Source: Gammaproteobacteria bacterium (GTDB lineage: Bacteria; Pseudomonadota; Gammaproteobacteria; GCA-001735895). Taken from it: DNA of 33,400 nt. Shown here piece by piece: positions 28,869 through 30,167 of this stretch. Numbering within the stretch: position 1 is the stretch's first letter; each line of letters starts with the position of its first letter. The notes under the pieces are model-generated. The model had not been told where the DNA came from. It saw nothing but the letters and a program-made list of their open reading frames with translations, and did no database searches. The position numbers were made by a program, and so were the translations under genes. The stretch is taken from positions 1-33,400 of the forward strand of contig JAAEMR010000229.1 of assembly GCA_024225395.1 (NCBI GenBank), read 5' to 3'.

Positions 28869-28943
28869 TGGGCCGTCGCCAAGCGGTAAGGCACTGGGTT
28901 TTGATCCCAGCATGCGTAGGTTCGAATCCTGCCGGCCCAGCCA
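28869..28943 (+). tRNA. tRNA-Gln (anticodon TTG)
   Basis: 75 nt including an encoded CCA. The acceptor stem TGGGCCG/CGGCCCA is fully paired. The anticodon stem CTGGG/CCCAG encloses TTTTGAT with TTG at 28901-28903. The T arm is GTAGG-TTCGAAT-CCTGC. No separate promoter is evident in the 11 nt after ispE, so processing from the ispE transcript is likely. Its last 18 bases plus one are repeated exactly 232 bp downstream. Confidence 0.97.
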
Positions 28944-29176
28944 TATTTAAAACAGTATCATCGATTGGCTAATTGGTGATACTTAGACCGCGACAGGATT
29001 TGAACCGTTAAAAGGTTCGACAAAATCACCTGGAATGATTTTGAACGCCAAAGGCGGCCCTTTTAGGGTGAGGGCATGGTAGCCCTAATATAAAATCGTC
29101 AGCAACGATTTTAAACGCGTAGCGCCCGTAGGGTGAAATACAGGACGTATTTCATTTATCCTGCCGGCCCAGCCAT
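28926..29176. repeat. 232 bp element bounded by 19 bp direct copies of the tRNA-Gln 3' end, built of tandem hairpins
   Basis: The sequence ATCCTGCCGGCCCAGCCAT occurs at 28926-28944 (tRNA 3' end) and again at 29158-29176. Between the copies lie a 12 bp wobble-containing hairpin (28955-28982) and an inverted copy of the T-arm/acceptor region (28988-29006). Two homologous modules follow (about 29021-29087 and 29091-29154). Each has an AAAATC..GATTTT hairpin, AACGC, GCG, AGGGTGA and a further hairpin. Stem sequences differ between modules but pairing is kept. No protein is encoded. It lies 28 nt before prs, so it could also be part of the prs leader. An integration remnant, a tRNA-derived repeat or a structured RNA are all possible. 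Confidence 0.65.
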
Positions 29177-29204
29177 TATTTTTTAAATCTAGTGAAGAAA
29201 TCTG

Positions 29205-30167
29205 ATGGTCGGTATCGTCGCACATGACATGATGGTGTTTACTGGGAATGCAAATCCCCAGTTAGCAAATACTATTAGCAAAAACCTCGACATCCCACTT
29301 GGACAGGCTTCCGTCGAATGCTTTAGTGACGGCGAGATTTCTGTAGAAGTGCGTGAAAATGTACGCGGTAAAGATATTTTTATCGTTCAGCCAACATGTA
29401 AACCCACCAACGATAACCTGATGGAACTGTTGGTGATGATAGATGCAATGAAACGCGCATCGGCTAATCGTATTACGGCTGTTATTCCTTATTTCGGATA
29501 TGCCAGACAGGATCGACGTGTACGCTCCCAGCGCGTTGCCATCACTGCCAAGGTTGTTGCAAACATGTTGACCAGCGTCGGCGTTGACCGTGTTTTAACC
29601 GTTGATTTACACGCTGACCAGATTCAGGGATTTTTTGACCGCCCTGTTGATAACGTCTATGCCTCACCCATTTTGATGAGTGACATCTGGAAACAGGAAT
29701 ACCCCGATATGATCGTGGTATCACCTGACGTAGGCGGTGTAGTTCGTGCACGCGCTGTCGCAAAACAGCTGGGAGATGCAGAACTGGCGATTATAGACAA
29801 ACGTCGCCCGAAGCCTAACGAGGCCAAGGTTATGCACATCATTGGTGACGTAAAGGATAAAACCTGCATCATCGTGGATGACATGGTTGATACCGCAGGC
29901 ACATTATGCCAGGCGGCTAAAGCTCTGAAAGAACACGGCGCATCAGGCGTATTTGCCTACTGTACCCATCCGGTATTATCCGGCAAAGCAATACACAATT
30001 TAAACAATTCAGTTATTAACAAACTGATTGTTACCGATACGATTCCACTGTCTGAAGAAGCTCAGACCTGTGACAAAATCAGAACCGTATCAATGGCGTG
30101 GATGCTGGCAGAAACTATTCGCCGCATTCACTTTGACGAATCTGTTAGTTCGCTTTACATGGACTAA
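29205..30167 (+). CDS. prs: Ribose-phosphate pyrophosphokinase (PRPP synthase)
   Basis: 320 aa. It makes PRPP from ribose-5-phosphate and ATP for purine, pyrimidine, histidine, tryptophan and NAD synthesis. Family motifs are [60 protein letters not shown] and [18 protein letters not shown], and the PRPP loop is [15 protein letters not shown]. The ATG at 29205 has a weak AAGAAA site. In-frame ATGs at 29229 and 29232, immediately before VFTGN, would be closer to the usual length but have no ribosome-binding site. The leader contains the tRNA-derived hairpin element. Confidence 0.97.

Follow-up and report, generated by a model that had tools for sequence, protein, structure and literature searches.

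An rtT-like unit of two palindromic modules between tRNA-Gln and prs and its dispersed relatives in Gammaproteobacteria

The 33,400-nt stretch of gammaproteobacterial DNA analyzed here (the window; contig JAAEMR010000229.1) carries, between its tRNA-Gln and prs genes, a single unit composed of a left arm, two palindromic modules and a copy of the tRNA-Gln 3′ end. This unit is probably a member of a family of non-autonomous mobile palindromic elements of the type represented by Escherichia coli rtT. All of its parts are described on the + strand. The intact tRNA-Gln(TTG) gene at 28869–28943 is the source of the copied 3′ end; the first copy of this 19-bp direct repeat (ATCCTGCCGGCCCAGCCAT) spans 28926–28944 and recurs exactly, with 19 of 19 positions identical, at 29158–29176. 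A spacer hairpin at 28954–28983 (AGTATCATCGATT/AATTGGTGATACT) is followed by the left arm, P1 (CCGcgaCAGGAT, 28988–28999), and by a small hairpin, P2 (TTGAACC/GGTTCGA, 29000–29020), whose last bases, GGTTCGA, correspond to the 5′ half of T-arm plus T-loop; 28991–29006 is an inverted copy of the tRNA-Gln T-arm. In the DNA-energy fold of 28988–29170, which provided P1 and P2, the left arm closes on the tRNA-end copy by pairing with 29158–29167, and the hairpins of both modules lie inside. The modules themselves, delineated with Infernal, are arranged head to tail with a 70-base step, each being ~70 bp long and containing four hairpins. Module 1 (29021–29090) matches R1, a covariance model built from 32 modules of related genomes, at 55.5 bits (E 3e-9), and has hairpins at 29021–29043 (GGA in the loop), 29046–29056, 29057–29069 and 29071–29086. 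Module 2 (29091–29156) matches R1 at 61.1 bits (E 1.6e-10), with hairpins at 29091–29113, 29116–29124 and 29125–29133 (both with a GTA triloop) and 29135–29153 (loop CAGGACG). A preliminary description of this DNA had placed both modules, with their stems and paired changes, at the same positions; the 19-bp tRNA-Gln end copy and the inverted T-arm copy were missing from it.

Comparison of the orthologous sites shows that the unit is present in some relatives and absent from others. In G006, a genome of the same genus, tRNA-Gln runs directly into prs-proximal sequence and the element is absent, and in the close relative G002 prs follows straight after tRNA-Gln, also without the element. The window, G001 and G007 each contain one or more units, with the shared prs-proximal sequence resuming after the last unit. 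The empty site in G006, aligned with the occupied sites of the window, G001 and G007, therefore identifies 28945–29176 as an insert, 232 bp long relative to the empty site, with prs (29205–30167, + strand) as the downstream neighbor outside the element. The same pattern of presence and absence indicates that the region is not a conserved prs leader. The prs leader RNA suggested in the preliminary description is thus not supported, given that G006 and G002 keep tRNA-Gln next to prs without the element, and that many other tRNAs and genes have the module as a neighbor.

The plan of the unit is that of E. coli rtT (Rfam RtT, RF00391). Like rtT, the window unit follows a tRNA gene, whose 3′ end it repeats at its own terminus; its left arm is complementary to the T-arm (GAAGGgTGAGAACCTTC) and is followed by GGTTCGA and then four short hairpins; and, as in rtT, units occur in tandem. 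Indeed, the E. coli tyrT–tyrV region contains four units of like plan that all finish with the tRNA-Tyr 3′ end, and these four rtT units are the best R1 matches in the tyrT stretch, albeit weak ones of 10–14 bits. In a permissive Rfam search the window scored 17.9 bits against RtT, below the gathering cut-off of 45, and no family other than tRNA reached its gathering score in the window. Because the RtT cut-off is not reached, we do not call the element a member of Rfam RtT. Other tRNA-linked copies scored 40.6 bits (the tRNA-Gln unit of G050), 33.6 bits (G023) and 28.1 bits (Rheinheimera) against the same cut-off, and the tRNA-Tyr unit of G239 matched both models, at 63.1 bits with RtT and 46.9 bits with R1. 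Matches to RtT above the cut-off occur in 18 of 274 genomes of the class, and of the 50 genomes of the class matched by RtT, R1 also matches 42 (p 3e-11). Judged by sequence, then, the element is best described as rtT-type, linked to rtT by intermediates that match both RtT and R1. The earlier statement that no named family has this plan accordingly needs amending, as rtT shares it, and stands only in that the window copy falls short of the Rfam cut-off. There are further differences between the two. The loops of this family are often GGA, whereas E. coli rtT has GCGAAAGC and GCGAAGC, and the family module can also stand by itself at a distance from tRNAs, or be doubled head to tail within a unit. 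A protamine-like protein, Tpr, is annotated in E. coli.

The module is widely dispersed. The draft genome that contains the window has at least 12 R1 copies at E < 0.001, the window's two included, others lying after tRNA-Lys and after tRNA-Arg, and a divergent tandem array after tRNA-Glu scores 28 bits with R1. Among the sampled Gammaproteobacteria, 116 of 274 species (42%) have R1 matches, often in multiple copies, as do 72 of 299 genomes of the phylum, not all of which belong to the class; the E-values of R1 are rough, and the counts per genome are lower bounds, as 16–18 candidates were scored in each. Hosts among the matches listed include Serratia, Phytobacter, Alteromonas, Kangiella, Rheinheimera, Bowmanella, Endozoicomonas, Ectothiorhodospira, Methylomicrobium and Steroidobacteraceae, in addition to others. 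The suggestion of a dispersed tRNA-associated repeat is thus borne out, the covariance search having recovered both further copies in the same genome and homologs across the class and phylum. Inverted pairs of modules also occur, and three genomes (G281, G157 and G171) carry many copies with identical scores over one chromosome. In G281 and G157 the identical copies are embedded in longer repeats, so part of the spread is hitch-hiking. Those of G281 (L262–L271) are near-identical dispersed repeats with TTAAC...GTTAA-like ends and the module within, resembling a longer, MITE-like carrier; those of G157 (L272–L277) comprise at least six near-identical dispersed repeats, likewise longer than the module that they contain. 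A phage or plasmid origin was rejected, the consensus module having no match in the phage and plasmid collections searched.

The module is concentrated near tRNA genes. In a set of 109 distinct copies among the matches listed, collected with a scan pattern free of any tRNA sequence, 33 lie less than 400 bp from a tRNA gene, where about 1.2% would be expected (p 1e-36). Each of the 33 shares the strand of its tRNA, and in 19 of them at least 14 of 18 nt of the 3′ end of that same tRNA follow; in a smaller set from the class scan the strands agree in 20 of 25. The module stands at TTCGA^ATC, the T-loop of a partial copy of the local tRNA, and does so for nine tRNA kinds. Next to an intact gene, G003, G006 and G014 have a tRNA copy that is complete but for an interruption at the T-loop. 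In addition, the closing stem is longer with the end of the unit's own tRNA (7.6 bp) than with ends of other kinds (5.6 bp), a difference reached in none of 500 permutations of the 46 tRNA-linked copies, which cover the nine kinds. In L186 and L206, GTCGA precedes the module, which apparently occupies the D-loop of a partial tRNA-Ser copy; tRNA sites other than the T-loop are therefore also used. Local tandem duplication of tRNA 3′ ends together with chance hairpins, without any mobile family, could account for tRNA 3′ ends being repeated along with their spacers or terminators, as is seen in L075 and in E. coli tyrT. This explanation is hardly credible, however, for a module that accompanies many different tRNAs and also turns up at sites without a tRNA, in rRNA spacers and within proteins.

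That the hairpins are real structural features is clear from folding and covariation. Dinucleotide shuffles fold far less well than the region, which has z-scores of −6.4 for 28944–29180 folded as RNA and of −4.85 (DNA) and −4.6 (RNA) for 28988–29170. Pairing in hairpin 1 reaches 99.3% over the 32 homologous modules, which come from related genomes. Both partners have changed in 18 of their 25 pairs, where shuffles give 11.6 ± 1.6, and covariation scores 0.383, as opposed to 0.151 for shuffles. The hairpin richness and the compensatory changes noted earlier therefore withstand comparison with shuffles. One reading of these data is a conserved, structured tRNA-trailer RNA that would be released by processing, as rtT is reported to be, and have a role of its own, for example in the stringent response. 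The plan shared with E. coli rtT, the complete strand bias in the unbiased set and the strong covariation are all in keeping with such an RNA, and PMC4986893 and PMC2965389 describe the reported release of rtT from the tyrT transcript and an effect on the stringent response. The kinds of base change seen in the hairpins speak against it.

Selection on RNA tolerates G.U pairs but not A.C mismatches, whereas a DNA palindrome treats both alike. In hairpins 1 and 2 the ratio of G.U to A.C is 25:11, compared with 100:2 in the tRNA stems of the same loci (p 5e-6), so that G.U pairs are scarce relative to A.C mismatches. Hairpin 3 has a C(GNA)G triloop in 56 of 78 and in 44 of 69 non-redundant copies, with a GNRA tetraloop in one copy of each set. 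Loops of the GNA type form extraordinarily stable DNA mini-hairpins (PMC4686876), and the rtT sequences given above, GCGAAAGC and GCGAAGC, are both named in the GNA mini-hairpin literature. Together, the G.U:A.C ratio and the C(GNA)G triloops favor folded DNA as the thing that is kept. From the strand bias of copies near tRNAs it is evident that either the transcript or the insertion direction matters too. Of the selection on structure proposed in the preliminary description, the kept pairing and the covariation hold; selection on RNA is doubtful, a DNA palindrome fitting the changes better. Moreover, the trailer RNA would have to accommodate patchy presence within one genus and copies scattered over protein genes and many unrelated locations, and we consider it unlikely. 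Between a conserved regulatory RNA and a non-autonomous mobile palindrome of DNA, the evidence favors the latter. The covariation in this case may mirror DNA palindromes and not RNA function, a point of relevance to structured-RNA searches near tRNA genes.

A second RNA-based reading concerns the loops. The GGA loops of hairpins 1 and 4, cotranscribed with tRNAs, might titrate CsrA/RsmA as decoys and so link tRNA transcription to the Csr system. The loop of hairpin 1 is CNGGA, with GGA in 69 of 78 copies, and hairpin 4 has A(N)GGA in 66 of 78, while GGA is rare in hairpins 2 (4 of 78) and 3 (5 of 78); these counts are inflated by the GGA-rich seed alignment of R1. Hairpin 4 resembles the CsrA consensus: CsrB repeats read CAGGA(U/A/C)G, SELEX yielded RUACARGGAUGU and RsmE prefers ANGGAN loops (PMC7652899). 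At the level of the family, the A(N)GGA hairpin loops may be a likeness to CsrB and RsmX/Y/Z, and csrA is present in the window's genome. However, the Rfam Csr/Rsm models stayed below their cut-offs, the family is tRNA-linked, unlike those RNAs, and its occurrence showed no dependence on CsrA, which is lacking from 13 of 116 module-bearing genomes and 26 of 158 others (p 0.29). GGA is retained no better in tRNA-linked than in unlinked copies, E. coli rtT is without GGA loops, and the window has GGA in only two of four candidate loops. The three checks, on CsrA co-occurrence, GGA retention and the E. coli rtT loops, gave no support to a CsrA sponge, and the decoy reading seems quite improbable. 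It enters into a broader scheme, to our minds a long shot, under which E. coli rtT would be a domesticated member of a Proteobacteria-wide mobile DNA mini-hairpin family that favors tRNA T-loops, re-creates the tRNA end on insertion and gives CsrA-binding loops to stable-RNA transcripts, making tRNA operons distributed CsrA sinks.

Under the mobile-palindrome explanation that we prefer, the unit of spread would be the ~70-bp string of four hairpins. In stable-RNA operons the module occupies the T-loop of a partial tRNA copy (TTCGA^ATC), so that each unit ends in a copy of the local tRNA 3′ end and begins with an inverted copy that pairs with it. Spread and upkeep would most likely proceed as self-complementary DNA, single-stranded or cruciform. 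The data show homology, dispersal, the T-loop position, copies of local tRNA ends, a bias to one strand and variable occupancy of orthologous sites; we infer that spread acts on folded DNA. Transcription with the tRNA operon would be incidental, although now and then exploited, as in E. coli rtT. Several observations count against this explanation. A mobilizing enzyme was not found: among the genes beside modules neither a transposase nor a gene of any other kind recurs, and the presence of Y1 transposases is uninformative, as these are common whether or not a genome has R1 matches. The non-tRNA sites show no excess of insertion into hairpin loops (p 0.78), and such insertion was rejected. The one-strand arrangement of tRNA-linked copies in the unbiased set could also be explained by selection on the transcript, and the identical copies of G281 and G157 ride inside longer repeats.

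The literature searched held no relevant account of a palindromic repeat that bears a name and is tied to tRNA genes. A parallel can be drawn with the REP/BIME sequences of enterobacteria, which are likewise short, dispersed, non-autonomous palindromes with inverted module pairs; PMC2965389 notes a similarity of rtT to BIME-linked attenuators. The present family differs in having four hairpins per unit, the tRNA T-loop position and the tRNA 3′-end copies, and, in contrast to REP elements mobilized by RAYT (Y1) transposases, no RAYT gene was found among the neighbors of its modules. The mobile-palindrome reading would place E. coli rtT, an old orphan, in a large mobile family, of which R1 and the site rule TTCGA^ATC of the tRNA copies offer a means to find the remaining members. 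It would also mean that one repeat has invaded tRNA copies, rRNA spacers and protein N-termini.

Outside tRNA operons, a module lies in the 23S–5S spacer of a ribosomal operon of Serratia marcescens 106R (L150, 837–911), and two further Serratia copies (L185 and L200) have flanks similar to those of L150. In other genomes, copies extend or sit within ORFs, in frame and N-terminal. The gene for a NuoG-like protein (L278, G171:C1:3570272–3571431) contains six head-to-tail 72-nt modules, the last incomplete, which encode an in-frame repeat of 24 residues (..PHKIVRNDFGQPKAGPEDGLQGRS..) at its N terminus, 24 codons per module. At or near the start codons of GmhB-, response-regulator- and MurG-like proteins (L153, 7048–7123; L188, 1711–1786; L209, 6620–6691), in Steroidobacteraceae and other Gammaproteobacteria, the module provides extensions of the type MTKSSGTILDG.... 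The identities of these proteins come from reading of the sequences. Such in-frame palindromic repeats in protein genes, found in genomes other than that of the window, are a likeness to the Rickettsia palindromic elements, which differ in sequence and hosts; the main niche of the present family is stable-RNA operons. Some non-tRNA copies (L098, L114, L147 and L157) lie within other dispersed palindromes of the type GTCATTCCGGCGAAAGCCGGA^ATCCAG. In L079 (G005:C37:5000–6700) several modules lie near an open frame that resembles, by eye, an IS91-type transposase.
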